Source: an uncultured Clostridia bacterium | GTDB lineage: Bacteria > Bacillota > Clostridia > Christensenellales > Borkfalkiaceae | DNA length: 64,000 bases | Assembly: GCA_944368155.1 (NCBI GenBank) | Contig: CALVWW010000001.1 | Span: 1-64,000, forward strand | Reading direction: 5' to 3' | In this document: positions 3,103 through 46,386 of the stretch, piece by piece | Position numbering within the stretch: the first letter of the stretch is position 1 | Layout of the letters: every line of letters starts with the position of its first letter | Position numbers and translations under genes: made by a program | Notes under the pieces: model-generated | The model's input: the letters and a program-made list of their open reading frames with translations, nothing else | Told to the model about the DNA's origin: nothing | The model's database searches: none

Positions 3103-3128
3103 AGTATTTCTCCCGTAAGGTTAAACAA

Positions 3129-3247
3129 ATTATAACATAATTTGTAAGCAGATGTCAATAGTTTGGCAATATTTATAGTACTATGTCATACATAGTTGCA
3201 ACTATTCGTTTCATTTATTGGACTTTTGCGGAGCACCATGATATAAT
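3129..3247. promoter_or_regulatory. divergent promoters and palindromic operator between PadR gene and thioesterase
   Basis: Leftward promoter: TTGACA (3153-3158 as complement) and TATAAT (3129-3134 as complement), 18-bp spacing. Rightward promoter: TTGGAC (3218-3223) and TATAAT (3242-3247), 18-bp spacing. Between them is the palindrome ACTATG-TCATA-CATAGT (3180-3196), which contains the ATGT...ACAT pattern known for PadR operators. Its placement between both -35 boxes suggests one regulator controls both genes; that is an inference. Confidence 0.65.
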
Positions 3248-3277
3248 AAATTCGGTTTAAATTTTAGGGGTGAAACT

Positions 3278-4012
3278 ATGTATAAACATATAAAGAATTA
3301 CGACATCCGTTATACAGACGTCGATTTCAAAGATGAATTAAAGCTCTCGTCTCTTCTTTCGATTTTGGAAGAATCGGGTTGTCTTTCGGCGGATGAGCTT
3401 GGCTTCGGATATGATGACATTACGCCGCGCGATATCGGTTTTATACTAGTAAACTGGTATATCGAATTCTACCGTCCTATCACGCTTAAAGATAAGCTCA
3501 CAGTTCATACGTGGCCTATGAAGCCTAAAAATACTATATTTTTCAGAGAGTTCGAGGTTTATTGCAACGGTATAAAAGTTTGTGCGGCAACGACGCGCTG
3601 GTGCATGGTCGACGTTAAAACTTTTGCCGTATTGCCTACAAGCGTATTTTTTGAAGGAGATACGCGTGAATATAATGAATTCCGCGCAATTGATTTTAAT
3701 TCATGGAGAATTCCCGCCGTTAAAAACGGGCATAAGAAATATGAAAAGACGGTGTCGGCTTCCGATTACGACCATTATTTTCATGTTAATAATACTAAGT
3801 ATGCCGATTTCTGTTTGGATGCTTTTACCGTCGATGAGTTGAAAAACAAGAGTCTCGGTACCGTGCAGATTACTTATGTAAAGCAATGCAAGTTTGGCGA
3901 AAAGCTGGAGTTTTTCCGGGAGGACGACGGAAATATTTCCTCAGTTGAGGGCCGTGTCGGCGATGAACCGCGCGTAAGGCTCAAAGTTGAATTTATTGAT
4001 AAAAGCGAATGA
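3278..4012 (+). CDS. acyl-ACP thioesterase
   Basis: 244 residues, FatA-like double hot-dog fold. It would hydrolyse acyl-ACP to free fatty acid plus ACP in the cytoplasm. The first hot-dog runs over residues about 5-130 (DIRYTDVDFKDELKLSSLL). The second begins near residue 145 and has the family signature DYDHYFHVNNTKYADF, in which the Asn-Asn after HV is part of the catalytic site. Length fits bacterial members. It has its own sigma-A-like promoter, start spacing is normal, and the gene is followed by a terminator. Its position opposite a membrane-bound PadR protein suggests a link to membrane lipid state, which is speculative. Confidence 0.85.
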   Translation: MYKHIKNYDIRYTDVDFKDELKLSSLLSILEESGCLSADELGFGYDDITPRDIGFILVNWYIEFYRPITLKDKLTVHTWPMKPKNTIFFREFEVYCNGIKVCAATTRWCMVDVKTFAVLPTSVFFEGDTREYNEFRAIDFNSWRIPAVKNGHKKYEKTVSASDYDHYFHVNNTKYADFCLDAFTVDELKNKSLGTVQITYVKQCKFGEKLEFFREDDGNISSVEGRVGDEPRVRLKVEFIDKSE

Positions 4013-4021
4013 ATGACAGAT

Positions 4022-4057
4022 TACCCGGGCAGCCCTTGAACTGCTCCGGGTAGTTTT
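4022..4057 (+). terminator. intrinsic terminator after thioesterase
   Basis: The stem TACCCGG/CCGGGTA continues as GCAG/CTGC with one bulge (4022-4052). It is followed by AG and then TTTT. Confidence 0.75.
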
Positions 4058-4117
4058 AAAGTGCGGGCGTAAGTAGCGAATTAGATTTTACGTCTGCTCA
4101 TTCCCTCGGTTGTTTCC

Positions 4118-4759
4118 ATGTTCAGATACGAATATACAATCATAAAAAGTGACAGGAAAACTTTTGCAATCAAGGTCACGGAAGAAAACAAAATAATAGT
4201 GCGGGCGCCGCGCCGTGCCTCGCTTGTTGAAATTGAACGCATACTTGCAGAGAAGAGCGGGTGGATAGAGCGTGCTATGCGCTTCAACCGCGCCAACACG
4301 CTTGCAACGGAGAATATAAAGTCTTACAGGGAGGCCTATGTTGGCGGCGGGGTTGTGCCTGTAATTAAGGATGCGCGGAATTTTATTGACCGCGAAGGCG
4401 TGCATGTTACGGGGGTGAAAGGCTTTAAATCTGCTTACATAAACAGTCTGGGCCAATATTTTACCGAAAAGTTCCGTGCATTGGAAAGTGCCAGCGGGAT
4501 GACTTCATCAGGCGTAAGTTTTCGCTCTTACAGAAGTATGTGGGGATGTTGCGACTCCAAAAACAATATTACATTCAATTTTAAACTTCTTATGCTTCCG
4601 TATGAACTTCAGTACTATGTGATGGTTCATGAACTTTGCCATACTGTCTGTCACGACCATTCAGCTGATTTCTGGGCGCTCGTTTCAGGCATTCTTCCAA
4701 AGTGGAAGTCTCTTAGAAAACAATTAAAAAGTTACGCCTTCCTTGTTAAGCTTTATTAA
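4118..4759 (+). CDS. YgjP-like (SprT-type) zinc metallopeptidase
   Basis: 213 residues, resembling the YgjP/DUF45 family of predicted zinc-dependent hydrolases. The C-terminal signature is VMVHELCHTVCHDHSADFW: HELCH gives two zinc ligands and the catalytic Glu, and the His before SADFW is the likely third ligand. Upstream, SYRSMWGCCDSKNNITFNFKL matches the strand region common to this family (usually RWGSCS). Its physiological substrate is not known. It lies between a terminator and the arg promoter region and so is probably transcribed alone. The ATG at 4118 was chosen because it precedes the conserved N-terminal strands, but the ribosome site is weak. Confidence 0.8.
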   Translation: MFRYEYTIIKSDRKTFAIKVTEENKIIVRAPRRASLVEIERILAEKSGWIERAMRFNRANTLATENIKSYREAYVGGGVVPVIKDARNFIDREGVHVTGVKGFKSAYINSLGQYFTEKFRALESASGMTSSGVSFRSYRSMWGCCDSKNNITFNFKLLMLPYELQYYVMVHELCHTVCHDHSADFWALVSGILPKWKSLRKQLKSYAFLVKLY

Positions 4760-4834
4760 AATACATCGTTCTTTCCGCTTTTTATTTTGTCTTCCGAATA
4801 TAATTTTGCCGCGCACCGCATTTAAACGTATATC

Positions 4835-4949
4835 TATGCATAAAATTCAGATATATTCATAATTTATGAATAAATATGCAAAAATTCAACTAATTTTTTT
4901 TAAATATGCACTATAAAAGCTTGACTTTGTATTGTTTGTGTTGTATAAT
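4835..4949 (+). promoter_or_regulatory. arginine operon promoter with two ArgR-like boxes
   Basis: A consensus promoter, TTGACT (4921-4926), 17 bp, TATAAT (4944-4949), lies before argG. Upstream are two sequences close to the Gram-positive ARG box ATGAATAAAAATTCA: ATGCATAAAATTCA at 4836-4849 and ATGAATAAATATGCA at 4866-4880. An inverted repeat TATTCAT/ATGAATA (4854-4872) overlaps the second. A further half-like ATATGCA is at 4904-4910. Repression by arginine-bound ArgR is inferred; argR is not in the window. Confidence 0.7.
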
Positions 4950-5005
4950 TTGCAAGATGAAATCAGTTTTGATTTCAAATACCGTTTAACTGGACGAAAT
5001 AAGTC

Positions 5006-6226
5006 ATGGAAAAGAAAATTAAAAAAGTAGTTCTCGCCTACTCAGGGGGGCTTGACACTTCGATTATCATCCCCTGGCTCAAAGAAAATTACGACAATTG
5101 CGAAGTTATTGCTGTTTCTGCCGATGTCGGACAGGAATCCGAACTTGAGGGCCTTGAAGAGAAGGCGTTAAAGACGGGAGCTTCCAAGCTTTATATAGAG
5201 GACCTGCGCAAGGAGTTTATCGAAGATTATATTTATCCTACGATGAAGGCAGGCGCTGTATATGAAAACAGGTATCTTTTAGGTACTTCCTTTGCACGCC
5301 CGGTAATTGCCAAGAGGATAGTGGAAATTGCAAAAAAGGAAGGCGCAGACGCCATTTGTCACGGCTGTACGGGCAAGGGTAACGACCAGGTTCGTTTTGA
5401 ACTCTCAATAAAGGCGTTCGCGCCCGAAATGCCCATTATTGCTCCTTGGCGCATCTGGAACATTAAGAGCCGCGACGAGGAAATAGATTATGCAGAGGCG
5501 CACAATGTCCCTCTTAAGATAAACAGGGAAACAAATTATTCTAAAGATAAGAATCTTTGGCATCTCTCTCATGAGGGGTTGGACCTTGAAGACCCTGCAA
5601 ACGAACCTCAGTATGATAAAATACTGGAGCTCGGCGTATCTCCATGGAATGCACCCGACAAAAGCACTTATATAACCATTCACTTTGAAAAGGGTGTTCC
5701 CACTGCAATAGACGGGCAGGAGATGGACAGCGTCTCTCTCATAGAAAAGCTCAATAAAGTAGGCGGAGAAAACGGCGTCGGTATAATCGACATGGTAGAA
5801 AACAGGCTCGTGGGAATGAAGAGTCGCGGCGTATATGAAACTCCCGGCGGAACGATTCTCTATACTGCCCACGAACTGCTTGAATCGATTTGCCTCGATA
5901 AAGCGACAGCGCATTACAAGCAGCTTATTGCGGTAAAATACGGCGAAATGGTCTATGACGGGCAGTGGTTCACTCCTTTGAGGGAGGCTCTCGATGCTTT
6001 TGTCGATAAAACGCAGGAAAATGTTACGGGTGACGTAAAGCTTCGCATTTATAAGGGCAACGTACTGCCGGCAGGTATAACTTCGCCTCACTCGCTCTAC
6101 AGCGAAGATATTGCAACTTTCGGCGAAGATAACTGCTACGACCAGACCGATTCGGCGGGTTTCATCAATCTCTTCGGCTTGCCTATAAAGATAAAGGCGT
6201 TGCTTGACGAGAAAAAATTGAAGTGA
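5006..6226 (+). CDS. argG: argininosuccinate synthase
   Basis: 406 residues. Joins citrulline and aspartate with ATP to give argininosuccinate, the penultimate step of arginine synthesis. The PP-loop near the N-terminus ([18 protein letters not shown]) binds [18 protein letters not shown] and the [15 protein letters not shown] region are characteristic of the family. Length is normal and the frame is intact. It is the first gene after the ARG boxes and promoter. The next enzyme, argininosuccinate lyase (argH), is not found in this cluster. Confidence 0.97.
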
Positions 6227-6258
6227 CTTAAAATTCAATCAGAAAAAATGATTATCGT

Positions 6259-6289
6259 GCGCCGCGCCGTAATTTTTACGGCGCGGCGC
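6259..6289 (+). other. GC-rich hairpin between argG and argC
   Basis: GCGCCGCGCCGTAA pairs with the matching arm ending at 6289 across a short T-rich loop. There is no T-run after it, so it is more likely an mRNA-stabilising or segmental-expression hairpin than a full terminator. Confidence 0.55.
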
Positions 6290-6302
6290 TGAAGCGGATA
6301 AG

Positions 6303-7235
6303 ATGTTTAATGTATTTATAGACGGCCGCGAAGGTACTACAGGCCTTCAGATTTATGAGAGGTTGCAAAGACGCGGCGATATCAATTTAATGGTTTTGCC
6401 GGATGAAAAGCGCAAGGACGTTGCAGCGAGGAAAGAGTGTTTGAACTCTGCCGATTTGTGTTTTTTATGTCTGCCCGACTCTGCCGCACGCGAGAGCGTT
6501 TCGCTCATAGAGAATGAAAAAGTGCGCGTCATAGACGCGTCGACGGCTCACAGAACTGCCGAAGGCTGGGTTTACGGTTTCCCTGAAATCGCTCCTGACA
6601 GGAGAGAGCAGATAGCGGCGGCGAAGAGGGTGGCAAATCCCGGCTGCCATGCGACCGGTTTTATATCTTTGGTTGCGCCGCTTGTAAAAGGCGGAATACT
6701 CCCGGCTGACTATCCGCTCGTCGCGCATTCTGTGACCGGCTATTCAGGCGGGGGCAAGAAAATGATTGCCGAGTATGAAGCTGAAGAAAGAGATGTCGCT
6801 CTCGATTCGCCGCGGCAGTATTCGCTCAAACTAGGGCACAAACACCTGCCCGAAATGGTAAGGGAGTGCGGGCTTGCGCATGCGCCCATATTCAACCCGA
6901 TAGTGGCAGATTTTTACTGCGGCATGTGCGTGACTGTGCCGCTATACGCGAAGTTGCTGCTCAAAAATATTGGCGTAGATGGCGTAAGAGAATATTTTGC
7001 GAAGTACTATGCGTCACATAAATTTATAAAAGTTTCCCCAAAAGATGACATTCCTGCCTATCTTGCAGCAAATGAACTGGCCGGAAAAAACTTTTTAAAA
7101 ATTTATGTGAGCGGCAACGATGAGATGATTTTGCTTTGCAGCGTGTTCGACAATCTCGGCAAAGGAGCGTCGGGCGCAGCCGTTCAGAACATGAACATAA
7201 TGCTCGGCATGGATGAGAGCATTTCGCTCATATGA
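6303..7235 (+). CDS. argC: N-acetyl-gamma-glutamyl-phosphate reductase (short, type 2)
   Basis: 310 residues. Reduces N-acetylglutamyl-5-phosphate to the semialdehyde with NADPH. The N-terminus MFNVFIDGREGTTGLQIYER is the nucleotide-binding loop of the short ArgC type. The catalytic cysteine is in VANPGCHATGF, and HSVTGYSGGGKKM is the substrate loop. Length agrees with type 2 ArgC (about 310) rather than the 340-350-residue type. It lies 76 bases after argG across a GC-rich hairpin and before a second promoter ahead of argJ. Confidence 0.95.
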   Translation: MFNVFIDGREGTTGLQIYERLQRRGDINLMVLPDEKRKDVAARKECLNSADLCFLCLPDSAARESVSLIENEKVRVIDASTAHRTAEGWVYGFPEIAPDRREQIAAAKRVANPGCHATGFISLVAPLVKGGILPADYPLVAHSVTGYSGGGKKMIAEYEAEERDVALDSPRQYSLKLGHKHLPEMVRECGLAHAPIFNPIVADFYCGMCVTVPLYAKLLLKNIGVDGVREYFAKYYASHKFIKVSPKDDIPAYLAANELAGKNFLKIYVSGNDEMILLCSVFDNLGKGASGAAVQNMNIMLGMDESISLI

Positions 7236-7302
7236 CGGTGCAGGTTAAGTATTTGTCAATTGTATTCATATTGACGGATTGAAAATTATATTATAAAGTC
7301 GA

Positions 7303-7331
7303 TTGACGGCTGGGCTTTTTTGATATATAAT
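7303..7331 (+). promoter_or_regulatory. internal promoter before argJ
   Basis: TTGACG (7303-7308), 17 bp, TATAAT (7326-7331), 47 bases before the argJ start. It would allow argJ and the genes beyond to be expressed apart from argG-argC. A weaker TTGACG lies at 7271-7276. Confidence 0.7.
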
Positions 7332-7377
7332 TGAACGGAAAAGATAGACGATTGTATTACGGACAAAAATTACAAAT

Positions 7378-8598
7378 ATGAAATTATTGCGTGAAATCAG
7401 CGGCGGTGTGTGCGCGCCTTCGGGGTTTAAGGCCGGCGGCATACACTGCGGCATCAGAAAGAATAAAGACAAAAAAGATTTTGCTCTTATTATCAGCGAC
7501 GTTCCTTGTGCGGCAGCCGGTGTGTATACACAAAATTTAGTTAAAGGTGCGCCTGTCGTCGTAACAAAGCGCAACCTGTCCGACGGGGTTGCACAGGCGA
7601 TAATCTGCAACAGCGGCAACGCCAATACCTGCAACAGCGACGGCGAAATTGTGGCGGAGGAGATGTGCTCTTTGGTTACGAAAGTTGCAGGAATTGCCAA
7701 AGAGGATGTTATAGTCGCTTCCACAGGCGTTATAGGTCAGCCGCTCGATATCCGTCCTATGTCGGAAGCCGTCGACGAGCTGTATGCCTCGCTCGGGGAC
7801 GACAGCGGGAGCGCGGCCGAAGCCATCATGACGACAGATACCGTACCCAAATCGGTAGCAGTTGAATTTGAAGCTGGCGGCAAGGTCTGCCGTATAGGGG
7901 CAATAGCCAAAGGCGTGGGCATGATTTGTCCCAACATGGCAACAACGCTTATATTTATTACTTCGGATGTAAACATATCTTCCGGAATGTTGCAGAAGGC
8001 TCTGTCTGAGGATGTGAAGACTTCGTTCAACATGGTCAGCATCGACGGAGACCAGTCGACAAACGATACTTGTTGCATACTGGCAAACGGACTTGCCGGT
8101 AACGGGAAGATATGCTCTCCCGGTCAGGATTATACCATATTCAAGAGGGCGCTGCATTACTGTACAGTAAAGCTTTCGAGAATGATTGCTAAGGACGGTG
8201 AAGGGGCGACTAAGCTCATCGAGTGCAATGTCCGCGGTGCAAAAACTGCAAAAATGGCGAGGAATGTCGCAAAATCGGTCATTAAGTCGTCGCTTGTAAA
8301 GGCGGCCATGTTCGGCGCCGACGCCAATTGGGGCAGGGTGCTGTGTGCGATAGGCTATGCGGGCGAAGCGGTAGATGTGAATAAAATAGACGTAAGTTTT
8401 CGCTCGAAGGCGGGTTCACTTCCCGTATGTAAAGACGGGAAGGGTATTCCTTTCGACGAAGACTATGCAAAAAAAGTGCTCCTGCTTGACGAAGTTGAAA
8501 TAAATATCTCGCTCAATCTCGGCGGTTGCAAGGCTTCGGCATGGGGCTGCGACCTTACGTATGAATACGTAAAGATTAACGGCGATTACAGGACTTGA
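7378..8598 (+). CDS. argJ: bifunctional ornithine acetyltransferase / N-acetylglutamate synthase
   Basis: 406 residues. Transfers acetyl from N-acetylornithine to glutamate, closing the cyclic arginine pathway; many members also make N-acetylglutamate from acetyl-CoA. The proprotein cleaves itself before a Thr in a conserved MAT motif, visible here as CPNMATTLIFIT. CNSGNANTC and NWGRVLCAIGYAG are other family motifs. The C-terminus YEYVKINGDYRT is typical. Presence of argJ explains why no separate argA or argE is needed. Confidence 0.95.
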   Translation: MKLLREISGGVCAPSGFKAGGIHCGIRKNKDKKDFALIISDVPCAAAGVYTQNLVKGAPVVVTKRNLSDGVAQAIICNSGNANTCNSDGEIVAEEMCSLVTKVAGIAKEDVIVASTGVIGQPLDIRPMSEAVDELYASLGDDSGSAAEAIMTTDTVPKSVAVEFEAGGKVCRIGAIAKGVGMICPNMATTLIFITSDVNISSGMLQKALSEDVKTSFNMVSIDGDQSTNDTCCILANGLAGNGKICSPGQDYTIFKRALHYCTVKLSRMIAKDGEGATKLIECNVRGAKTAKMARNVAKSVIKSSLVKAAMFGADANWGRVLCAIGYAGEAVDVNKIDVSFRSKAGSLPVCKDGKGIPFDEDYAKKVLLLDEVEINISLNLGGCKASAWGCDLTYEYVKINGDYRT

Positions 8599-8662
8599 GC
8601 GATAGTTCATTTTGAACAGTATGCTGAAAATATAAAAGCGTCTGACTTGTTCGGAGAATTTA

Positions 8663-9511
8663 ATGGATAAACAGGAACAGGCCGAGTTTTTGATAGAAGC
8701 TCTGCCGTACATCAAAAAATACTATAACAAGATTATAGTTATAAAATATGGCGGTAACGCCATGACCGACGGCAAACTTAAGTTCGCCGTAATGAATGAT
8801 GTTGCCGTGCTGAATGCGCTCGGCATCAAAGTCGTGCTCGTCCACGGTGGCGGACCTGAGATTTCGGATATATCCAAACGCATGGGTATTCAGACAAAAT
8901 TCGTTAACGGCCTGCGCTATACCGACGAGGAAACGGCTGAAATTGCCCGCATGGCGCTTGCCGGAAAGGTAAATAAATCTCTTGTCGACCTGCTCTGCGC
9001 CGCCGGAGGGAAAGCTATAGGCCTGTGCGGTGAAGACGGCCACATGCTCAAGTGTGAAAAACTTTCTGACGAGCTCGGATTTGTGGGTAAGATAGTAAAT
9101 ATCAACACAGCGGTCGTGGAGGACATTTTAAGTCTCGGCTATGTGCCTGTAATCTCTCCCATAGGGTTTGATGACGACGGCAATATTTACAACATAAACG
9201 CCGATACGGCGGCCGCGTCGATTGCCGGAGCTCTGGGTGCTGAGAGTCTTATTCTTATGACGGACATCAAGGGTCTGCTTGAAAATAAAGACGACCCTTC
9301 AAGCCTCATTAAAAAGGTCTATGTGTCCGATATTCCGGCGCTGGTGAAACAGGGCATAATATCGGGCGGAATGATTCCTAAAATTGAATGCTGCAAAGAG
9401 GCCATCCGCCGCGGAGTGAATAAGGTGTTCATAACCGACGGTAGGGTTTACCATTCCATTTTGGTGGAGATATTGTCTGAAGAGGGCAGCGGCACAATGT
9501 TTTACAGTTGA
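8663..9511 (+). CDS. argB: acetylglutamate kinase
   Basis: 282 residues. Phosphorylates N-acetylglutamate with ATP. Amino acid kinase fold: VIKYGGNAMTD near the N-terminus, VVLVHGGGPEIS for the substrate, and YNINADTAAASIAGAL plus SGGMIPKIECC for ATP binding. The N-terminal helix before the kinase core (EQAEFLIEALPYIKKYY) is seen in the arginine-inhibited hexameric type, so feedback inhibition by arginine is plausible. A terminator-like hairpin follows immediately. Confidence 0.96.
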   Translation: MDKQEQAEFLIEALPYIKKYYNKIIVIKYGGNAMTDGKLKFAVMNDVAVLNALGIKVVLVHGGGPEISDISKRMGIQTKFVNGLRYTDEETAEIARMALAGKVNKSLVDLLCAAGGKAIGLCGEDGHMLKCEKLSDELGFVGKIVNINTAVVEDILSLGYVPVISPIGFDDDGNIYNINADTAAASIAGALGAESLILMTDIKGLLENKDDPSSLIKKVYVSDIPALVKQGIISGGMIPKIECCKEAIRRGVNKVFITDGRVYHSILVEILSEEGSGTMFYS

Positions 9512-9543
9512 CTGATTTATGCTTTTAAATCAGTCTTTCTTTT
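9510..9543 (+). terminator. terminator-like hairpin between argB and argD
   Basis: A perfect 10-bp stem GACTGATTTA/TAAATCAGTC (9510-9519 with 9526-9535) is followed by TTTCTTTTA. It starts at the last bases of argB. It could cause partial termination and reduce expression of argD-argF-carAB relative to argJ-argB. Confidence 0.7.
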
Positions 9544-9572
9544 AATAATTTAAGATATTTTCGGAGAAGAAA

Positions 9573-10739
9573 ATGGACGGAAACTACATAATAGGAGAGG
9601 ATAAGCAATTTATTGCGGGAACGTATTCCCGTTTCCCCGTCGTGTTTAAAGAAGGCAGGGGGTGCCGCCTCTATGACTACGAAGGCAAAGAGTATCTCGA
9701 TTGCGGCAGCGGAATTGCGGTTGATATCTTCGGAGTAAACGACGAGGAGTGGAAGGCTGCAGTTATAGGGCAACTCGAAAAAGTTCAGCACACATCCAAT
9801 CTGTATTATACTGAACCGCAGGCAAGGCTGGCCAAACTTCTGTGTGAAAAGACGGGAGCAAAGAAGGTTTTCTTCGGCAACAGCGGGGCAGAGGCAAACG
9901 AATGTGCCATTAAGGCTGCAAGAAAGTACGGGGAGATTAATTACGGCAAAAACAGAAAAGAGATAATAACTTTAAAAGATTCTTTTCACGGCAGAACGCT
10001 TGCAACGCTTGCGGCAACAGGGCAGGATGAATTTCATAAGTATTACGACCCTTTCCCCGCAGGTTTTGTATACGCCGAAGCAAATATAGGGAGCGTTAAT
10101 GATTGCGTGAACGAAAATACCTGCGCAATTATGATAGAATGCATCCAGGGTGAAAGCGGCGTAAATCCGCTTGATGTAGCATTTGTGAAGCATGTGGAAA
10201 AGCTGTGCCGCGAAAGAGATATTCTCTTTATATGCGATGAGGTCCAGACAGGAAACGGAAGAACCGGATATCTGTATGCATATCAGGCATACGGCGTTCA
10301 GCCCGATATAGTTACTACGGCAAAGGGGCTGGGCGGAGGACTTCCGATAGGCGCCTGCATGCTTTTTGACAAATGCCGTGATATTTTCACTTATGGCGAC
10401 CACGGCTCGACATTCGGGGGGAATCCCGTAGTTTGCGCAGGGGCATACAGCATTTTGAGCAGAATTGACGAAAAACTGCTTGAGAAAGTGAAGAGTAACG
10501 GAGCGTATTTTGCAGAAGAGCTGAAAAAGATAAGCGGCGTGGAGCAAGTCACCGGCATGGGGCTTATGATTGGCATAAAAACAAAAAAAACTGCCGCCGA
10601 AATAGCGAAACAGTGTATCGAAAAGGGGCTTTTAGTGCTCACCGCACATTCTAAAGTGCGCCTGTTGCCGCCCCTCACAATAAGCAAAGAGGAAATCGAC
10701 TTTGCGCTTAAAATTTTAAATGAGGTAATAAGCGGATGA
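9573..10739 (+). CDS. argD: acetylornithine aminotransferase
   Basis: 388 residues, class III PLP aminotransferase. Converts N-acetylglutamate semialdehyde to N-acetylornithine. FGNSGAEANECAIKAAR binds the PLP phosphate, DEVQTGNGRTG holds the Asp facing the pyridine nitrogen, and TTAKGLGGGLPIGA has the Schiff-base Lys. Length is normal. An 'aggagaaga' ribosome site lies upstream of the start at 9573. The last four bases overlap argF (ATGA), indicating translational coupling. Confidence 0.95.
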   Translation: MDGNYIIGEDKQFIAGTYSRFPVVFKEGRGCRLYDYEGKEYLDCGSGIAVDIFGVNDEEWKAAVIGQLEKVQHTSNLYYTEPQARLAKLLCEKTGAKKVFFGNSGAEANECAIKAARKYGEINYGKNRKEIITLKDSFHGRTLATLAATGQDEFHKYYDPFPAGFVYAEANIGSVNDCVNENTCAIMIECIQGESGVNPLDVAFVKHVEKLCRERDILFICDEVQTGNGRTGYLYAYQAYGVQPDIVTTAKGLGGGLPIGACMLFDKCRDIFTYGDHGSTFGGNPVVCAGAYSILSRIDEKLLEKVKSNGAYFAEELKKISGVEQVTGMGLMIGIKTKKTAAEIAKQCIEKGLLVLTAHSKVRLLPPLTISKEEIDFALKILNEVISG

Positions 10740-11638
10740 AACATTTACTTAAACTTGGCGACCTTTCGAGGGAAGATATTTTATCGATATTGAACCTTGC
10801 AGACCAACTAAAATTCGAACGCAACAACGGCATACAGAAAGAATATCTGAAGGGCAAAAAGCTTGGAATGATATTTCAGAAAGCTTCGACGCGCACAAGG
10901 GTGTCGTTTGAAGTCGGCATGTATGAGCTCGGAGGATATGCCCTCTTTTTGTCGAGCAACGACTTGCAGATAGGCAGAGGCGAGCCTGTTCAAGATACCG
11001 CGCGCGTATTATCGCGCTATCTCGACGGAATTATGATTCGCACGTTTGCCCAGCAGGAAGTGGAAGATTTGGCAAAGTACGGCACTATACCCGTAATAAA
11101 CGGCCTCACCGACTATTGTCATCCGTGCCAGGTGCTTGCCGACCTTATGGCAATCCGAGAGTATAAAGGCACGTTCAAGGGGCTTAAGATGGCGTTTATC
11201 GGCGACGGAAACAATATGGCGAACAGTCTGATAGTCGGTGCCGTTAAAATGGGAATGAACTTTACGGTTGCCTGCCCTGAAGGATATGAGCCCGACGCTG
11301 AACTTGTCAAGTGGGGCAAAGAAAGCGGTCTTTTAACTGTAACTTCAAATGTTGACGATGCTATCGAAGGTGCCGATGTGCTCTATACAGATGTGTGGGC
11401 ATCGATGGGGCAGGAGAAGGAGAAAAAGGAGCGCGAAAGTGTATTCAAAGGTTTCCAGATAAACGAAAAGAATATTAAACGCGCCAAAGAAGATGTAATG
11501 GTGATGCATTGTCTGCCTGCGCACCGCGGCGAAGAGATTACCGACGGCGTGTTCGAGGCGCATGCAAAGGAAATATTTGACGAGGCAGAGAACAGGTTGC
11601 ACGCGCAGAAGGCCGTTATGGTTAAGCTGATGCGCTGA
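10736..11638 (+). CDS. argF: ornithine carbamoyltransferase
   Basis: 300 residues. Makes citrulline from ornithine and carbamoyl phosphate. The carbamoyl phosphate motif is STRTRVSFEVGM. HPCQVLADLMAI is the second phosphate and carbamoyl site, and the ornithine loop with its reactive Cys is VMHCLPAHRGEEI. Length is slightly short but intact. It overlaps argD and is followed by carA after 81 bases, so carbamoyl phosphate supply and use are encoded side by side. Confidence 0.96.
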   Translation: MKHLLKLGDLSREDILSILNLADQLKFERNNGIQKEYLKGKKLGMIFQKASTRTRVSFEVGMYELGGYALFLSSNDLQIGRGEPVQDTARVLSRYLDGIMIRTFAQQEVEDLAKYGTIPVINGLTDYCHPCQVLADLMAIREYKGTFKGLKMAFIGDGNNMANSLIVGAVKMGMNFTVACPEGYEPDAELVKWGKESGLLTVTSNVDDAIEGADVLYTDVWASMGQEKEKKERESVFKGFQINEKNIKRAKEDVMVMHCLPAHRGEEITDGVFEAHAKEIFDEAENRLHAQKAVMVKLMR

Positions 11639-11719: not shown

Positions 11720-12793
11720 ATGAAAAACGGTAAAGTTTATTTAACGCTTGAAAACGGCAGGCAGTTCACCGGCTACGCCTTCGGCGCCGAAAGGGAAGTG
11801 ATTGGCGAGCTTGTGTTTACGACCGGCATGACGGGCTACATTGAAACGCTTACAGACCCGAGCTACTACGGCCAGATTGTAACACAGACTTTTCCTCTTA
11901 TCGGTAACTATGGTATGATAGAGGCCGATATTGAAAGCAGCAAACCCTGGGTCTCTGCCTATATTGTGAGAGAGAAGTGCGACAAACCGTCGAACTTCCG
12001 TTGCGGCGGGACGATTGAGGACTATTTAAAGCGGCATGATATACCGGGGATTTACGGCATTGACACGCGCGAACTCACCAAAATTGTGCGAGAGGCAGGC
12101 GTTATGAACGCTGCGATAACACGCCGTCCGCTCAAGGAGCTCGGCTGTGTCGCATCATACTCAATCAAAGACGCCGTTAAATCGGTTACCTGTAATGAAG
12201 TCGAGTATCTCGGCGACCCCGACGGGTTAAGAGTTGCCGTCTGGGATTTCGGCGCAAAACGCAACATAATGCGTGAGCTTGCAAAACGCGGCTGTTACTG
12301 CATGAGGGTGCCCTCGTATTATACGGCTGAGCAGATTCTTGCTCTCGGGCCGCAGGGGCTTATGCTCACGAACGGCCCCGGCGACCCCGCGGAGAATACG
12401 GAGCTTATTTCTAATATCCGTGAACTTGCGGGTAAACTGCCTGTTTTCGGTATCTGCCTCGGGCATCAGCTATTTGCGCTTGCCATGGGCGGTAAGACAA
12501 AAAAGATGAAATACGGACACAGGGGTTCCAATCAGCCTGTCAAAAACCTCGATACGGGCAGGGTATATATCTCCAGTCAGAATCACGGCTACGAGGTTAT
12601 TTCCTCCAGCGTTGAGGGCGGCAAGCTCAGTTTTATAAATGCCAACGACGGTACATGCGAAGGATTTGAATATCCCGAGCTTAACGCGTACACGGTGCAG
12701 TTCCATCCCGAAGCATGCGGCGGTCCCATGGACGCGTCCTTCCTTTTCGATAAATTTATTCTAAACATAAAGGAGGGCAGGTATCATGCCTAA
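11720..12793 (+). CDS. carA: carbamoyl-phosphate synthase small subunit
   Basis: 357 residues. Glutamine amidotransferase subunit that delivers ammonia to CarB. The N-terminal CPSase domain has LVFTTGMTGYIETLTDPSY. The C-terminal class I glutaminase has the nucleophile in FGICLGHQLFALA, and VQFHPEACGGPMD carries the His-Glu pair. It overlaps the next gene by eight bases, so the subunits are coupled. Position inside the arg cluster suggests this copy serves arginine synthesis. Confidence 0.96.
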   Translation: MKNGKVYLTLENGRQFTGYAFGAEREVIGELVFTTGMTGYIETLTDPSYYGQIVTQTFPLIGNYGMIEADIESSKPWVSAYIVREKCDKPSNFRCGGTIEDYLKRHDIPGIYGIDTRELTKIVREAGVMNAAITRRPLKELGCVASYSIKDAVKSVTCNEVEYLGDPDGLRVAVWDFGAKRNIMRELAKRGCYCMRVPSYYTAEQILALGPQGLMLTNGPGDPAENTELISNIRELAGKLPVFGICLGHQLFALAMGGKTKKMKYGHRGSNQPVKNLDTGRVYISSQNHGYEVISSSVEGGKLSFINANDGTCEGFEYPELNAYTVQFHPEACGGPMDASFLFDKFILNIKEGRYHA

Positions 12794-15700
12794 GAGAGAG
12801 GATATTAAAAAAGTTCTTGTTATAGGTTCCGGGCCAATCGTCATAGGTCAGGCGGCAGAGTTCGACTATGCGGGCGCGCAGGCCTGCCGTGTTTTGAAAG
12901 ACGAGGGGCTTGATGTAGTTTTATGCAACTCAAACCCCGCAACCATTATGACAGACAAGGCTCTTGCCGATGAAATATATCTCGAGCCGCTCACGATAGA
13001 TACTTTAAAGAGAATTATCATAAAGGAGCGTCCTGACAGCCTGCTTGCTTCACTCGGCGGACAGACGGGGCTTACCCTCGGCTGCCAGCTTGCAAAAGAG
13101 GGCTTTCTCGATGAGTGGGGCGTTAAGCTTATCGGCGTAAATTTAAGCGCAATCGACAGGGCTGAAGACAGAGAACTCTTTAAAGAGACCATGCAGAAGA
13201 TAAACCAGCCTGTCGTTCCTTCCGATATAGCCTATACGGTTGAGGAGTGCATCGAAGTTGCAGAAAAAATAGGCGGTTATCCCGTAATCGTGCGCCCTGC
13301 GTATACGCTCGGCGGCGCGGGCGGCGGCGTTGCGCATGACGAGGAAGAACTTAAAATCATTGCGCACAACGGACTTATGCTGTCGCCGATTACGCAGGTG
13401 CTCATTGAAAAATATATAGGCGGTTGGAAGGAGATAGAGTTCGAGGTTCTGCGCGACGGAGCGGGAAACGTGCTCACGGTCTGCTCTATGGAAAACTTCG
13501 ACCCGGTGGGAATACACACAGGCGACTCGATAGTAATTGCGCCCGCCGTGACGCTCTCAGACAAGGAGTATCAGATGCTCCGCACGGCCTCGCTCGATAT
13601 TATCACCGAACTTGGGATAGAGGGCGGCTGCAACTGCCAGTTTGCGCTCAATCCCGACTCTTTCGAGTATTCGGTAATTGAGGTCAATCCCCGTGTTTCG
13701 CGTTCTTCGGCGCTGGCTTCCAAGGCCACCGGTTATCCGATAGCCAAAGTTGCCGCCAAAATTGCGCTCGGCTATACTCTCGATGAAATAAAGAACGACG
13801 TTACCGGCAAAACTTATGCCTGCTTTGAACCTACTCTCGACTATGTTGTTGTAAAGCTCCCCAAGTGGCCTTTCGATAAATTTTTGTACGCAAAGCGTAC
13901 TTTGGGTACCAGAATGAAGGCGACCGGTGAAGTTATGGCGATAGGAACTTCCTTTGAAATGGCCATAATGAAGGCGGTGCGCGGCGCCGAAATTTCGCTC
14001 GGCACTTTAAACATGCCCAAAATGATGGAGTTTTCGGATGAGGAAATACGCGCGAAGCTCCATGAACTGACCGACGAAAGGCTGTTTGTCGTTTACAGTG
14101 CTATCAAGCGCGGAATATCGGTAGACGAAATTTTCAATATAACAAAGATTGACAGATGGTTCTTAAACAAACTGAAAAATCTTGCGGATTTTGAGAGCGA
14201 GATTGCCGGAAAACCCATCACCCGCGCGCAGTATATGCGCGGCAAAAAGCTCGGTTATCCCGATAAGGAGCTTGAAAAACTTTCGGGCAATAAATTGCCG
14301 ATGCACCGCAATTCCATATTTAAGATGGTTGATACCTGCGGTGCCGAGTTCGCCGCGCAGACGCCATATTTTTATTCAACTTATGACGAGCCCGAACACG
14401 ACGAGGCAAAACCTTTTGTCAGGCGCAGTAAAAAACGCAGAATAATCGTTATAGGTTCAGGTCCCATACGCATAGGCCAGGGTATTGAATTCGATTATTC
14501 GTCCGTGCACTGCGTGTGGACTCTGAAGGAGATGGGGTACGAGGTAATCATAATCAATAACAACCCCGAAACGGTATCCACGGACTTTGATACGGCAGAC
14601 AGGCTTTATTTCGAGGCGCTCACTCCCGAAGATGTTCAGAATGTAATCGATGTTGAAAAACCTTACGGTGTAGTTATTACCTTCGGCGGGCAGACGGCCA
14701 TTAAACTTTGCGGATATCTCGATAAGAAGGGTGTGCGAATTCTCGGCACGCCTGCCGACAGTGTTGACCTTGCCGAAGACAGGGAGAGGTTCGACGAACT
14801 TCTGGAACAGTTCTCTATAGCCCGTCCCAAGGGACTCACCGTTATGACAAAGGAGGAGGCGATTTCTGCCGCCGAAAAGCTCGGCTATCCGGTGCTTCTC
14901 CGTCCTTCATACGTAATAGGCGGGCAGAATATGACCATTGCCTTTACGCAGAACGATATCGAGAGATACATGGACGTAATACTTGCGCAGAAGATAGAAA
15001 ATCCCGTTCTCTGCGACAAGTACTTAATGGGTACCGAGCTTGAAGTGGATGCCATTTCCGACGGTGTGGATGTGCTGATTCCCGGTATCATGCAGCATAT
15101 TGAGCGTGCAGGCGTGCACAGCGGCGACTCGATAGCCGTTTATCCTCCATACAATCTGAGCGATTCCATGCTCAAGAAGGTGGTGGATATCTCTGTTGAA
15201 CTTGCCCTTTCGTTAAAGACAAAGGGGCTTATAAATATTCAGTATCTCATTTATCACAATGAGCTTTACGTAATTGAAGTCAATCCCAGAGCCTCTCGCA
15301 CGATACCTTATATTTCCAAGGTGACGGGCGTGCCGATGGTTGAACTTGCGACGAAGATTCTTATGGGCGCAAAATTAAAGCGCCTCGGCTACGGAACGGG
15401 GCTTTATCCCAATTCTCCGTATGTTGCGGTGAAGGTGCCCGTGTTCTCTTTCGAAAAGCTCAATGACGTCAACTCTCAGCTCGGTCCGGAGATGAAGTCT
15501 ACGGGCGAGGTGCTCGGCATAGGCAAGACTATAGAGGAGGCGCTGTTCAAGGGATTGGTTTCGGCGGGATTCAACATGAAGCATCCCACGAAACAGAATC
15601 CTTCCGGCATATATTTCACGGTAAACGACCAGGACAAATACGAGATAGTAAATATAGTTAAAAAGTTTGCCGACCTCGGTTTGACTCTGTATGCAACAAA

Positions 15701-16841
15701 AGGTACGGCAAACGTCATCCGCAGTCTCGGTCTGGAGTGCACAGACGTTGCCCGGCTTTCCACAAACGATGAAATTTTCAAACTCATGGATGAGGGCAAA
15801 ATCGACTACGTAGTATATACCGGCAAAACGGATATGGAGTCGATAACCAACTATATTTCGCTCCATCACCATGCAATTCTGCTGGGCATAACGGTGCTTA
15901 CATCGTTAGATACCACTAATGCGCTTGCCGACTGCATTGCGGGCAGATATACACAGTTCAATACCGAACTCGTCGATATAAATCATCTCCGCAAGGAAAA
16001 GCTCAAGCTCAATTTCTGTAAGATGCACAGTTGCGGCAACGATTACATTTTCTTCAATAACTTCGATAATAAGATTACATGCCCCGAATCGCTTGCAATA
16101 AACTTTTCCGACAGGCACTACGGCATAGGCAGCGACGGCATAGTGATGATTGAAAAATCGGATGTTGCCGACTGCAAGATGCGCGTATTCAACCGCGACG
16201 GCAGCGACGGCGGCCTTGCGGCAAATCCGCTTCGCTGTGTGGCAAAGTATGTATTTGACAAGCATATCGTAAATTCAGACACTATTAAAATTGAAGTTTG
16301 CGGTGATGTTAAAACTCTTGGGGTGGTGTCGTTCAACGGCGTCGCGAGCTCTGTTTCGGTAAATCTCGGCAGAGCGTCATTTGCTCCCGAAGATATTCCC
16401 GCAAAGAACGGCGGCGAAGTTGTGTTCGCTCCAATGAATTTCGGCGGCAGGGAATATGTTACTACGGCTGTGAAGGTGGGCAACTCTCACTGCATAATTT
16501 TCTGTGACAAGGTAGACGACGTCGACCTTGAAAATCTCGGTCAGGCGGTATTGGCATCAGGTATGTTCCCCGGCATAACATATGTGGAGTGTGCGCGTGT
16601 GGTAAACGACCGGACGCTGAAGATGCGCGTCTGGGATAAAATAAACGGTGAAACCATGGCCTGCGGTACGGCGGCTGCTGCCGTCGCCGCCGCCGCTGTC
16701 AGAGCCGGTAAATGCGCCCGTGACAAAGTAATCACAGTAAAGCTTCGCGGCGGAGACCTTTTTGTCCGCAGTCTTGAAAACGGTGATTTGGTTCTCGACG
16801 GCTCGGTGAAACAGTCGTATGAAGGTGTGATTGAAATATAA
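12786..16841 (+). CDS. carB: carbamoyl-phosphate synthase large subunit fused to a DapF-like domain
   Basis: 1351 residues in one uninterrupted frame. Residues 1 to about 1070 are a complete CarB: two ATP-grasp synthetase halves (each with a GSGPI-IGQ-EFDY start and an IEVNPR motif) and an MGS-like allosteric domain (GLTLYATKGTANV). From about residue 1073 the sequence is DapF-like: FCKMHSCGNDYIFFNNF, DRHYGIGSDGIVMIE, MRVFNRDGSDGG, VGNSHCIIF and MACGTAAAAV. DapF epimerises LL- to meso-diaminopimelate with two cysteines. Here the second is present (about Cys1293), but the first position, normally Cys in CGNGxRC, reads LAANPLRC with Ala1145. CarB activity is very likely; epimerase activity of the tail is uncertain. 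Confidence 0.93.
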   Translation: MPKREDIKKVLVIGSGPIVIGQAAEFDYAGAQACRVLKDEGLDVVLCNSNPATIMTDKALADEIYLEPLTIDTLKRIIIKERPDSLLASLGGQTGLTLGCQLAKEGFLDEWGVKLIGVNLSAIDRAEDRELFKETMQKINQPVVPSDIAYTVEECIEVAEKIGGYPVIVRPAYTLGGAGGGVAHDEEELKIIAHNGLMLSPITQVLIEKYIGGWKEIEFEVLRDGAGNVLTVCSMENFDPVGIHTGDSIVIAPAVTLSDKEYQMLRTASLDIITELGIEGGCNCQFALNPDSFEYSVIEVNPRVSRSSALASKATGYPIAKVAAKIALGYTLDEIKNDVTGKTYACFEPTLDYVVVKLPKWPFDKFLYAKRTLGTRMKATGEVMAIGTSFEMAIMKAVRGAEISLGTLNMPKMMEFSDEEIRAKLHELTDERLFVVYSAIKRGISVDEIFNITKIDRWFLNKLKNLADFESEIAGKPITRAQYMRGKKLGYPDKELEKLSGNKLPMHRNSIFKMVDTCGAEFAAQTPYFYSTYDEPEHDEAKPFVRRSKKRRIIVIGSGPIRIGQGIEFDYSSVHCVWTLKEMGYEVIIINNNPETVSTDFDTADRLYFEALTPEDVQNVIDVEKPYGVVITFGGQTAIKLCGYLDKKGVRILGTPADSVDLAEDRERFDELLEQFSIARPKGLTVMTKEEAISAAEKLGYPVLLRPSYVIGGQNMTIAFTQNDIERYMDVILAQKIENPVLCDKYLMGTELEVDAISDGVDVLIPGIMQHIERAGVHSGDSIAVYPPYNLSDSMLKKVVDISVELALSLKTKGLINIQYLIYHNELYVIEVNPRASRTIPYISKVTGVPMVELATKILMGAKLKRLGYGTGLYPNSPYVAVKVPVFSFEKLNDVNSQLGPEMKSTGEVLGIGKTIEEALFKGLVSAGFNMKHPTKQNPSGIYFTVNDQDKYEIVNIVKKFADLGLTLYATKGTANVIRSLGLECTDVARLSTNDEIFKLMDEGKIDYVVYTGKTDMESITNYISLHHHAILLGITVLTSLDTTNALADCIAGRYTQFNTELVDINHLRKEKLKLNFCKMHSCGNDYIFFNNFDNKITCPESLAINFSDRHYGIGSDGIVMIEKSDVADCKMRVFNRDGSDGGLAANPLRCVAKYVFDKHIVNSDTIKIEVCGDVKTLGVVSFNGVASSVSVNLGRASFAPEDIPAKNGGEVVFAPMNFGGREYVTTAVKVGNSHCIIFCDKVDDVDLENLGQAVLASGMFPGITYVECARVVNDRTLKMRVWDKINGETMACGTAAAAVAAAAVRAGKCARDKVITVKLRGGDLFVRSLENGDLVLDGSVKQSYEGVIEI

Positions 16842-17974
16842 TGATATACTTTGACAATGCGGCTACAACAAAGCCGGAAGATTCCGTGCTTGGTCTTGCT
16901 GCCCGCTATCTTAAAGAGCAATATTATAATCCTTCCGCGTTGTACGCGGAAGGATATAATTTGCACCTTGAACTTGAAGAATGCAGGAGGAGCATCCTCT
17001 CGCATGTTGCCGATGCCGATGATTATTCCATAATAATTACTTCATGCGGCACCGAGGCTGATAATCAAGCAATTTTCTGCGGAGGCAGGCGCGGCAACAT
17101 TGTAACTACAATGGGCGAGCATGCCGCCGTATTTGCCGCGGCAACTGAAGCCGGCCGCAGAGGAGTGGAGGCGCGCTTTGCGCAGCTCAATGCCGACGGG
17201 AGCGTCAACGTGGAAAATCTGCTGTCCCTCGTAGACGGCAAGACCTCGCTTGTATCCGTTATGCATGTAAATAATGAAACGGGCGCTGTGAATGATATAA
17301 ATGCAATAGCCGGCATGGTAAAGGCTAAAAATGCGCGTACGCTCTTTCATTCGGACGGCGTGCAGGCTTACGGCAAATTGCCTTTCAGACTAAGCGGGCA
17401 CGTCGACATGTATTCTGTAAGCGCGCACAAAATAGGCGGCTTAAAGGGCACGGGTGCGCTTATAAAAAAGAAGAAGCTTGTTTTGCAGCCGTTTATCTGG
17501 GGCGGCGGGCAGGAGAGCGGATTAAGAAGCGGCACCGAAAATGTTTACGGCATAGAGGCGTTCTGTGCCGCCGCGGCCGAACGTTACAACTATGGCAGAC
17601 ATGAAGTTAATTATAACAGGGTTCGTGAGTTGCAGGCGCGTATGTGGGAGCTGCTGGATAAGTCTCTCTTTGAGCGGATATCTCCTGGAAACGGCTCGCC
17701 GTATATTCTTACAGTCGCGGCGCGCGGCGTGCGGGGAGAAACAATTCTGCATATGTGCAATGACAGGGGGCTGATAATAGGCACAGGCTCGGCATGTTCA
17801 TCTAACGCATCTAAGCGGAATTCGCGTGTAATGCAGGCCTGCGGTATCGGACAGGATATGATAGACGGCGTTTTGCGCATAAGTTTTAATCCGCACAATA
17901 CCATTGAAGAGGTTGAAGAAGCGGCGACAATTCTTAACGAAGTTGTGGAGACAGACAGAGAGCTTACAGAATAG
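16841..17974 (+). CDS. cysteine desulfurase (NifS/IscS family)
   Basis: 377 residues, class V PLP enzyme that removes sulfur from cysteine as a persulfide. The PLP Lys lies in YSVSAHKIGGLKGTGALI. The persulfide Cys is in GTGSACSSNASKRNSRVM, a loop of the NifS-like group. The start ATG shares one base with the stop of carB-dapF (TAATG). It is followed three bases later by thiI, so it most likely donates sulfur to ThiI for tRNA 4-thiouridine, as NifZ does in Bacillus. No iscU or sufU is adjacent. A perfect 11-bp hairpin lies inside the coding sequence at 16929-16955. Confidence 0.92.
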   Translation: MIYFDNAATTKPEDSVLGLAARYLKEQYYNPSALYAEGYNLHLELEECRRSILSHVADADDYSIIITSCGTEADNQAIFCGGRRGNIVTTMGEHAAVFAAATEAGRRGVEARFAQLNADGSVNVENLLSLVDGKTSLVSVMHVNNETGAVNDINAIAGMVKAKNARTLFHSDGVQAYGKLPFRLSGHVDMYSVSAHKIGGLKGTGALIKKKKLVLQPFIWGGGQESGLRSGTENVYGIEAFCAAAAERYNYGRHEVNYNRVRELQARMWELLDKSLFERISPGNGSPYILTVAARGVRGETILHMCNDRGLIIGTGSACSSNASKRNSRVMQACGIGQDMIDGVLRISFNPHNTIEEVEEAATILNEVVETDRELTE

Positions 17975-17977
17975 TAT

Positions 17978-19132
17978 ATGGAACATGTAATTATTATCCG
18001 CTATGCGGAGATTCATTTGAAGGGAAAGAACCGCGGCTATTTTGAGCGCGTATTTGCGGCTAATATGGAAAAGTCTTTGCGCGGAATACGCCACGAAATA
18101 CGCAGGCAAAGCGGCAGATATCTCGTTGAAAATTTTGCCGAGAGCGATGTGGACAAAATCGTCAAAAAGTTGACAAAAGTTTTCGGTATGCACTCGCTAA
18201 GCGTAGGGTATAAAGTAAATTCAGATATGGACGAAATCTTTCATGCCGCTGAGGCCGTGTCTGATAAATTCGGTTCATTCAAGGTCGAAACTCATCGGGC
18301 AGACAAAACTTTTTATCTGAAGTCTCCCGAAATAAGCGCAATGATAGGCGGAAGGTTGTTAGACGGCAACAAAAATCTTAAAGTTGACGTGCACGAGCCT
18401 GATTTCGTAATAAATATCGACGTGCGGGAAAACGGGAAAACGCTTGTATTCAATAAATTCATCAAGTGTGCCGACGGAATGCCTGTCGGCACGGCCGGCA
18501 ACGGACTGTTGCTTCTTTCGGGCGGGATAGACAGTCCTGTGGCGGGGCATATGATAGCCAAGCGCGGAATGAAGATAGATTGCCTTCACTTTCACAGCTA
18601 TCCTTATACAAATATGCAGGCTCGCCAGAAGGTAAACGACCTTGCAAAAATTCTTTCTGAATACAACTGCGGCGTAAAGCTCTATGTAATCTCTGTAAAG
18701 GAGATACAGGAGGAGATTCACAAAAACTGCAACGGTGCCTACATGATAACGCTGTTGCGCCGCTTCATGATGAGGCTTGCCGAGCGTGTTGCCAGAAAGA
18801 ACGGCGACCAGTGCATAATAACGGGCGAAAGTCTCGGACAGGTTGCAAGCCAGACAATTGAAGGCATGACGTCGTCAAACAGCGTCGTGGAGAGTATGCC
18901 GGTTCTGCGCCCTCTGTGCGGCTTTGATAAGAATGAAATCATAGAGCGCAGCAGAAATATCGGAGCTTATGAAATATCTGTCCGCCCTTATGAAGACTGT
19001 TGCACTGTATTTCTTCCCGATTATCCTGTAATCAAACCGAAAATGGAGGATGTACTTGCGGAAGAGGCAAAGCTTGATGTTGAAAGATTGTTGGATAATG
19101 CTTTTGCAACTTTGGAAGTAAATGATTACTGA
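17978..19132 (+). CDS. thiI: tRNA 4-thiouridine synthase
   Basis: 384 residues. Adenylates U8 of tRNA and transfers sulfur from the desulfurase. An N-terminal ferredoxin-like and THUMP region (residues about 1-165) is followed by the PP-loop ATP site LLLSGGIDSPVAGHMIAKRG. ITGESLGQVASQTIEGM is a conserved ThiI motif. There is no C-terminal rhodanese domain, as is usual in Bacillota. It pairs with the desulfurase directly upstream. A bidirectional terminator follows. Confidence 0.95.
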   Translation: MEHVIIIRYAEIHLKGKNRGYFERVFAANMEKSLRGIRHEIRRQSGRYLVENFAESDVDKIVKKLTKVFGMHSLSVGYKVNSDMDEIFHAAEAVSDKFGSFKVETHRADKTFYLKSPEISAMIGGRLLDGNKNLKVDVHEPDFVINIDVRENGKTLVFNKFIKCADGMPVGTAGNGLLLLSGGIDSPVAGHMIAKRGMKIDCLHFHSYPYTNMQARQKVNDLAKILSEYNCGVKLYVISVKEIQEEIHKNCNGAYMITLLRRFMMRLAERVARKNGDQCIITGESLGQVASQTIEGMTSSNSVVESMPVLRPLCGFDKNEIIERSRNIGAYEISVRPYEDCCTVFLPDYPVIKPKMEDVLAEEAKLDVERLLDNAFATLEVNDY

Positions 19133-45155: not shown

Positions 45156-45174
45156 AAATAAAGGAGAAATAAAA

Positions 45175-45573
45175 ATGTCAGAAAAATTCGTAGCCTACAC
45201 AATGGACGACGCCCTGACGGCCGTCGCCGACCTTAAAGATTATTGCCAAGAGGAAGCAGGTTTTGAGACAAAGATTTCGGCGGAGCAATACCCCATCGAA
45301 ATCATTCTCACGCCCGCGGACGAGCAGCTCGACATGCTGAGCGAAGCCGAGCAGGCCACCGCTGCAGACGGGAATATAGTCATCGTGGCGGGAGCAGAAA
45401 CGAAGCTCAACTCAACGCTGCCCTTCGAAATGCCCGCTCCCGTTCTCAAAAAGATACTCAGCAAATCGGCCAAGGTGGCAACAGCCTATCTCCATGCGTT
45501 CCGTGCCGCCGCGCAGGAATTGCTCGACAACGGCGACGCATCGGCTATCCGCCTTCTGCAGGAGAGGATATGA
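45175..45573 (+). CDS. hypothetical phage protein
   Basis: 132 residues from the ATG at 45175, chosen for AAAGGAG 12 bases upstream; the longer frame would overlap the Rep gene. Acidic, alpha-beta: SEKFVAYTMDDALTAVADLK, then a Glu/Asp-rich middle and a C-terminal helix pair (KVATAYLHAFRAAAQELL). No known family. It overlaps the next gene by four bases. Confidence 0.55.
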   Translation: MSEKFVAYTMDDALTAVADLKDYCQEEAGFETKISAEQYPIEIILTPADEQLDMLSEAEQATAADGNIVIVAGAETKLNSTLPFEMPAPVLKKILSKSAKVATAYLHAFRAAAQELLDNGDASAIRLLQERI

Positions 45574-46273: not shown

Positions 46274-46297
46274 CGGGCATCCCAATTTTTGAATAAA

Positions 46298-46367: not shown

Positions 46368-46386
46368 AGTTTTAGGGGAATGAAGA

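Follow-up and report, generated by a model that had tools for sequence, protein, structure and literature searches.

The first 64,000 nucleotides of contig CALVWW010000001.1 (forward strand; assembly GCA_944368155.1), from an uncultured Clostridia bacterium of the family Borkfalkiaceae and henceforth referred to as the window, contain a gene in which carB, coding for the large subunit of carbamoyl-phosphate synthase (CPSase), runs in frame into dapF, coding for diaminopimelate (DAP) epimerase. We consider it highly probable that this carB::dapF gene descends from an ancient bifunctional fusion and that its DapF half is now a retained pseudoenzyme domain of an arginine CPSase. The open reading frame (12786..16841, +) starts with ATG and encodes 1351 amino acids with no internal stop; profile TIGR01369 (CPSaseII_lrg) matches residues 2-1050 of the protein (1401 bits; cut-off 1027), profile TIGR00652 (DapF) matches residues 1076-1349 (196.8 bits; cut-off 114.65), and a Pfam search concurs with both assignments. 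A frameshift or assembly error as the source of the fusion was ruled out, since 72 of the 93 genomes of the window's genus share the full-length frame, with a match over residues 1-1351, as do many other families; this also excludes a sequencing error at the junction, which an earlier note on this DNA had named as a possible refutation, and bears out its claim that two complete domains are truly fused in frame. The stretch which that note took for a linker, FNTELVDINHLRKEK, belongs instead to the conserved tail of the CarB part, and the DapF part begins right after it. The length of the junction was identical in 49 of 50 fused proteins inspected (of 116 collected), the exception, in genome G734, being seven residues longer. 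Internal initiation giving a separate DapF from the fused frame looks improbable, judging from the window sequence, because no in-frame ATG, GTG or TTG stands at the expected DapF start position and the earliest in-frame ATG after the junction is that of the Met in KMHS, 8 codons past the last CarB-tail codon.

An AlphaFold model of the window's DapF domain (mean pLDDT 79.4, pTM 0.66; low confidence at the junction) matched solved DapF structures with TM scores by target length of 0.86-0.89 for nine of the ten best matches and 0.76 for the tenth, the best ones, 2otn_A (TM 0.86) and 8qzy_A (0.88), both being DapF. The domain thus resembles DapF (TIGR00652, PF01678) in its full-length fold, in the second catalytic cysteine, Cys217, and in five of the eight tested substrate-binding residues (Asn11, Asn64, Asn75, Asn157, Asn190, Glu208, Arg209 and Thr219; H. 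influenzae numbering throughout, with the C. glutamicum correspondence assigned by motif in this analysis), but differs from it in being joined to CarB and in the changes Cys73 to Ala, Asn190 to Tyr, Glu208 to Asp and Arg209 to Lys, so that Ala and Cys stand in place of the two catalytic cysteines. These changes recur among the 34 fused sequences of the genus, where the first catalytic cysteine is replaced by Ala in 32 and by Ser in 2, Asn190 by Tyr in 23 and by Phe in 11, and Arg209 by Lys in 27, and position 208 holds Asp and Glu in 15 sequences each; separate DapF proteins have Cys at both sites in 10/10 cases in the genus alignment and in 49/49 in a wider one. Passages of PMC5296763 describe C. 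glutamicum DapF as nearly inactive when Ala replaces either cysteine or any one of the eight equivalent binding residues. Overall, the window's DapF domain is predicted to be devoid of epimerase activity. The earlier note had proposed that the fusion couples two enzymes; for the window this is probably wrong, because catalytic and binding residues are changed (the replacement of Cys73 went unremarked there) and because the genome holds a separate canonical dapF.

This separate dapF, the presence of which the earlier note had suggested checking, lies at C2:152734-153558 in the order dapF-pyrG-dapL, and the idea that the window genome has none was thus rejected. Its product is 42% identical to the fused domain. 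Ddh was looked for in the window genome and not found, and DapL together with the separate DapF would be expected to supply the organism's meso-DAP. At this locus (L005, 4447-13389) dapF, pyrG and dapL adjoin genes for a GXGXG-motif (glutamate-synthase-like) protein, an oxidoreductase, a ferredoxin-like protein and adenylosuccinate synthetase.

A census of fused DapF domains covered 116 of the 120 genomes searched (G477, G430 and G411 were left out since the fused-domain sequence was missing, and G540 since its carB and dapF are unfused). Domains with Cys/Cys were scored as 'live' and those with one or both cysteines lost as 'dead', which gave 53 live and 63 dead fusions. No other DapF was found by TIGR00652 search in 49 of the 53 genomes with a live fusion, and a search for Ddh in 30 of these 49 found it in 15 and left 15 with neither Ddh nor another DapF. 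Of the 15 live loci read, 7 have dapL and 6 have pyrG no more than 3 kb downstream; 14 dead loci and the window showed neither gene downstream, the flanks being of uneven length and some of them short. Live loci often neighbour purF, pyrG and dapL, that is, a glutamine and nitrogen cluster, and both this context and the downstream dapL and pyrG fit a working epimerase. The fusion of the live relatives is probably a working bifunctional protein, since both cysteines are present, no other DapF accompanies it in most of these genomes and dapL follows it in nearly half of the loci read.

The dead domains have Ala (30), Gly (16) or Ser (15) at position 73, or Cys73 together with Ser217 (2). Of their genomes, 49 also encode a full separate DapF, 2 contain fragments only and 12 have none, so that a strict rule by which the domain is dead only where a separate DapF exists is inexact, although Ddh, present in 11 of these 12, accounts for 11. 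The association between a dead domain and a separate DapF gave 5e-16 in a Fisher test (114 genomes, the two with fragments omitted), but small Fisher values here partly mirror shared ancestry, because phylogeny-aware independent-pairs tests were not significant. At least 6 switches between the live and dead states fall on well-supported branches, and 12 on the best tree. The two states also differ in genomic context: arginine genes lie upstream of carA in 22/34 dead loci and in 0/22 live loci, counting genes on the same strand within 3.5 kb upstream where at least 1.5 kb upstream of carA could be read (56 of 66 loci, the window excluded). Loci in which carA was not found (G448, G548, G572) or which had less than 1.5 kb upstream (G186, G127, G693, G252, G284, G345, G531) were omitted; among them, argF lies nearby in G448, G548, G186 and G127, all of which are dead. 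In the window, carB::dapF is the final gene after argG, argC, argJ, argB, argD, argF and carA, and its CPSase is that of an arginine operon, as the arginine genes stand directly upstream.

The dead domain has been kept. In a sample of the window's family we defined CarB 3' ends of the fused kind by at least 65% identity and a match reaching residue 1065 or beyond (77 ends in 76 genomes), and 76 of the 77 continue straight into the DapF part; the remaining one (G158) lies on a contig that stops 11 bases past the match, and a DapF match starts at base 14 of another contig. The other CarB rows of the family, which show 44-52% identity when complete, lack a DapF domain, their frames being no longer than 1118 residues. 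Within the genus, the median ratio of nonsynonymous to synonymous divergence (dN/dS) of the dead domain was 0.105 (the 47 of 171 pairs with dS < 1.5), the pairs being drawn from 19 sequences and hence non-independent. The ratio of dN in the DapF part to dN in the CarB part had a median of 4.2 in the genus (171 pairs of the 19 sequences) vs 1.04 among 9 live proteins (36 pairs). Selection on the dead domain is relaxed yet still purifying. Pseudoenzyme domains generally have lost a catalytic residue while the fold is kept under selection, and the window's domain combines both features; unlike in such domains at large, relatives here carry one and the same fusion in either the live or the dead state.

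These observations are consistent with the following course of events. An ancestral carB would have been followed immediately by dapF within a glutamine/nitrogen cluster (carA-carB-dapF, frequently accompanied by pyrG and dapL), and an end-to-end fusion of the two would have given a bifunctional CPSase/DAP epimerase, an ancestor suggested by the uniform junction together with the live relatives. Where a separate DapF or a Ddh bypass can supply meso-DAP, the DapF half would have lost a catalytic cysteine in several lineages, many of which have carAB::dapF in an arginine operon, as the window does; arginine control may have left the epimerase half unable to serve the cell wall, so that another DapF took over. 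The CarB half would have kept the domain, which in the window's genus appears as a pseudoenzyme domain under purifying selection, found only together with CarB. We infer that the dead domain now serves CarB, whether as a structural or oligomerisation element and/or, where the pocket is kept, as a putative amino-acid-binding regulator beside the changed nucleotide site of the MGS domain.

The substrate pocket bears on both kinds of service. Nine pocket positions (Asn11, Asn64, Asn75, Asn157, Asn190, Glu208, Arg209, Gly218 and Thr219) are retained at 95% in the 58 dead proteins outside the window's genus, in 56 of which Cys73 is gone. A seemingly special protection of the pocket, 95% vs 84% for 57 other columns, was discarded as arising from less conserved comparators, one column being an artefact of an N-terminal extension; against columns matched for conservation (98% or more), retention was 95.4% (9 columns) vs 94.3% (39 columns; Mann-Whitney p 0.77). 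In the window's genus (5 sequences) the pocket is retained at 71% and matched other columns at 76%. Outside the genus, decay of the pocket after loss of the cysteine is no faster than that of the fold, but the pocket has no special protection.

Pure structural entrenchment, in which the C-terminal domain of CarB leans on DapF for folding or oligomerisation and no ligand is bound, comes close to an even chance. None of the 77 fused-kind CarB ends has dropped the domain and its dN/dS is about 0.1; Asn190 is aromatic in 34/34 genus sequences, which suggests a filled pocket; and the matched comparison outside the genus gives the pocket no advantage over equally conserved columns. A ligand-free pocket should, however, outpace the fold in decay, and outside the window's genus it does not. 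Within the genus, structural retention is the likelier reason for the persistence of the domain because the pocket is altered there.

It is less likely, though worth considering, that the dead pocket binds DAP, lysine, ornithine or arginine without turnover and regulates the arginine CPSase, which would offset an altered MGS site. Such sensing would fit the high retention of the nine positions outside the genus in proteins that have nearly all lost Cys73, and in 44 of the 63 dead proteins none of the eight residues tested in C. glutamicum is lost (counting Ser at Thr219 as retained). It would also fit the MGS domain, in which a Lys and Ser pair at the equivalents of Lys993 and Thr1017, the second of which we take to correspond to that E. 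coli residue, is present in 53/53 live proteins, in 9/12 dead ones outside arginine operons and in 2/23 dead ones within them, the window included; the window has Arg at the first position and Gly at the second. These changes point to arginine-specialised CPSases with altered nucleotide control. In E. coli CPSase, Thr977 and Lys993 matter for inhibition by and binding of uridine monophosphate, according to a passage of PMC6245113. Against sensing, pocket retention no higher than that of equally conserved columns gives no sign of special selection, the pocket is altered in the window's own genus, and simple arginine specialisation would account for the MGS changes as well. The conservation-matched comparison lowered our estimate for sensing slightly, within the range of the improbable, and raised that for structural retention by an equally small step to its present near parity. 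It likewise lowered, by a similar step, our estimate for a more specific proposal, which we hold to be marginally less probable than sensing itself: that a lysine/cell-wall enzyme fused to CPSase repeatedly lost catalysis and became an amino-acid-sensing allosteric domain replacing nucleotide control by MGS, the window's genus with its aromatic-filled pocket representing a later stage.

Heterodimerisation of the dead domain with a separate active DapF, tying epimerase to CPSase, is very improbable: DapF proteins are generally dimers, as stated in a part of PMC5296763, and most dead genomes have a full separate DapF, but the eleven dead genomes with Ddh, in which no separate DapF was found, offer no partner, and in the window genome the two sequences are only 42% identical. 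A working bifunctional CPSase/DAP epimerase in the window organism too is the least credible alternative, since the complete fold, the profile score above the family cut-off and the Cys/Cys fusion that is apparently the sole DapF of many relatives are set against the loss of Cys73, the changes at Asn190, Glu208 and Arg209, single Ala equivalents of which nearly abolished activity in C. glutamicum (PMC5296763, in part), the canonical dapF beside pyrG-dapL and the 4.2-fold median dN of the DapF domain relative to CarB.

Several observations weigh against the preferred reading, that of an ancient bifunctional fusion with a retained pseudoenzyme half. In G183, a second copy is interrupted by an in-frame stop inside the MGS-DapF part, and the purifying selection might reflect nothing more than constraints on folding. 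A separate DapF is also present in four live genomes, and the 15 of 30 tested live genomes that have Ddh but no other DapF nevertheless stay Cys/Cys; conversely, neither a separate DapF nor Ddh was found in the dead genome G398. Serine at Cys73, found in 15 of the 63 dead proteins, might leave residual activity. One clade holds 39 of the 63 dead proteins, and the independent-pairs test of dead state vs separate DapF was not significant (6 pairs; mean 1.4 in the same direction, 0.8 in the opposite). Similarly, 12 of the 34 dead loci lie outside arginine operons, and the independent-pairs test of dead state vs arginine operon was not significant (5 pairs, nearly none informative).

The fusion is more widespread than expected. 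Beyond the 72 genus genomes with a match over the whole protein, seven (G019, G020, G026, G048, G056, G060, G074) have a separate DapF as their sole match, and the remaining 14 have partial, split, interrupted or weak matches, or, in G007, none. Among the matches listed, and therefore as lower bounds, at least 87 of 297 genomes in a sample of the order match the MGS-DapF query over all or nearly all of its length in an uninterrupted frame, 17 of them in the window's family and the whole spread over at least 16 family codes, and at least 40 of 291 genomes in a sample of the class have the fusion (3 in the window's family; at least 20 family codes); the search for other CPSase-DapF proteins and their range that the earlier note had advised was thus productive. 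The nearest named relatives include metagenome-assembled genomes of Candidatus Coproplasma (NCBI class Clostridia), and Candidatus Borkfalkia has about 60% identity across the MGS-DapF part. Within the order, genomes of family code f28 are small (0.8-1.2 Mb) and nearly complete, and 7 of the 11 listed have no match to this query. In locus L360 (G620, 3050-7092) carB::dapF is broken into two overlapping frames, probably by a frameshift or assembly error. A literature search apparently returned no paper on a carB-dapF fusion, although its coverage omitted most subscription papers and bioRxiv, so that unpublished status is not implied.

A quick tree of DapF sequences requires five changes between the fused and unfused states, of which at least three are forced. 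Three separate DapFs (G508, G595, G243) fall inside the main fused group and two fused groups (G734 and a six-row group with G256) outside it; the proposal that the separate dapF found in the window's family arose from the fusion by fission was rejected, as it branches away from the main fused group in this tree. That the fusion arose only once would thus rest mainly on the uniform junction, the tree giving no proof. The dapF genes of L066 (G145, the window's family) and L225 (G540, another family) are near-identical (branches of 0 and 0.005), which suggests recent transfer or contamination. With the other kind of CarB (about 50% identity in L066 and L067), a separate canonical dapF in some cases follows the stop codon a few codons on and in the same frame, an unfused counterpart of the gene (L066 7804-7830, L067, L185).

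Compared with known systems, the window protein is like CarB/PyrAB (TIGR01369) in its two ATP-grasp halves, its oligomerisation and MGS domains, the adjacent carA and the arginine operon, and unlike it in the additional C-terminal DapF domain of about 280 residues and in the Arg at the Lys993 position of MGS. In fusions of the CAD/Ura2 type, CPSase is joined to an active enzyme of the next step in its pathway; the window protein likewise joins CPSase to another enzyme, but the partner comes from the lysine pathway and is predicted to be dead. URA2 is named in a passage of PMC6245113, and the same source, in part, notes that organisms with two specialised CPSases, e.g. Bacillus subtilis, have an arginine-specific one. 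The window's CPSase resembles that type in being encoded with arginine genes, whereas a single CarB was found in the window genome (E 1e-100 or better). We know of no DapF domain in arginine-specific CPSases of the B. subtilis type.

The fusion offers a natural series, in which the live form is apparently the sole epimerase of its host (in many live relatives CarB would be the only DapF) and dead forms have arisen through the repeated switches described above with the domain kept in the family examined. It thereby makes testable why dead enzyme domains persist, be it for ligand sensing or through structural entrenchment, and sensing, if true, would be a new mode of control for carbamoyl phosphate synthesis. 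It is also a warning for automatic annotation: the window's domain exceeds the DapF cut-off but should not count as a DAP epimerase.

Table 1. Parts of the fused gene and its flanking genes in the window.
Feature	Position	Strand	Evidence
CarB part, full-length, residues 1-1068, including the MGS domain and the conserved tail NTELVDINHLRKEK	12786..15989	+	TIGR01369, NF003671, Pfam CPSase_L_D1/D2/D3, MGS
Fused DapF-like domain, residues 1069-1351, predicted catalytically dead	15990..16838	+	TIGR00652 196.8 bits, active-site columns, AlphaFold model
carA, small subunit of the same CPSase, 3' end overlapping the carB start	11720..12793	+	TIGR01368 422 bits
argG, argC, argJ, argB, argD, argF, arginine genes directly upstream	5006..11638	+	NCBIfam match for each
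Cysteine desulfurase (NifS/IscS-like) and thiI, directly downstream; order common to several related genera	16841..19132	+	profile search, synteny

Elsewhere among the loci with the fusion, glutamine synthetase (glnA) and an ANTAR-domain gene precede carA-carB::dapF in L346, L350 and L353, and purF adjoins carA in L347, L348, L351 and L359. The window also carries a prophage-like region (36026-37240, -, and 44286-62833, +; 10 open reading frames scanned) with an integrase, a replication initiation protein, terminase, portal, head protease, major head protein, tail sheath and tape measure.

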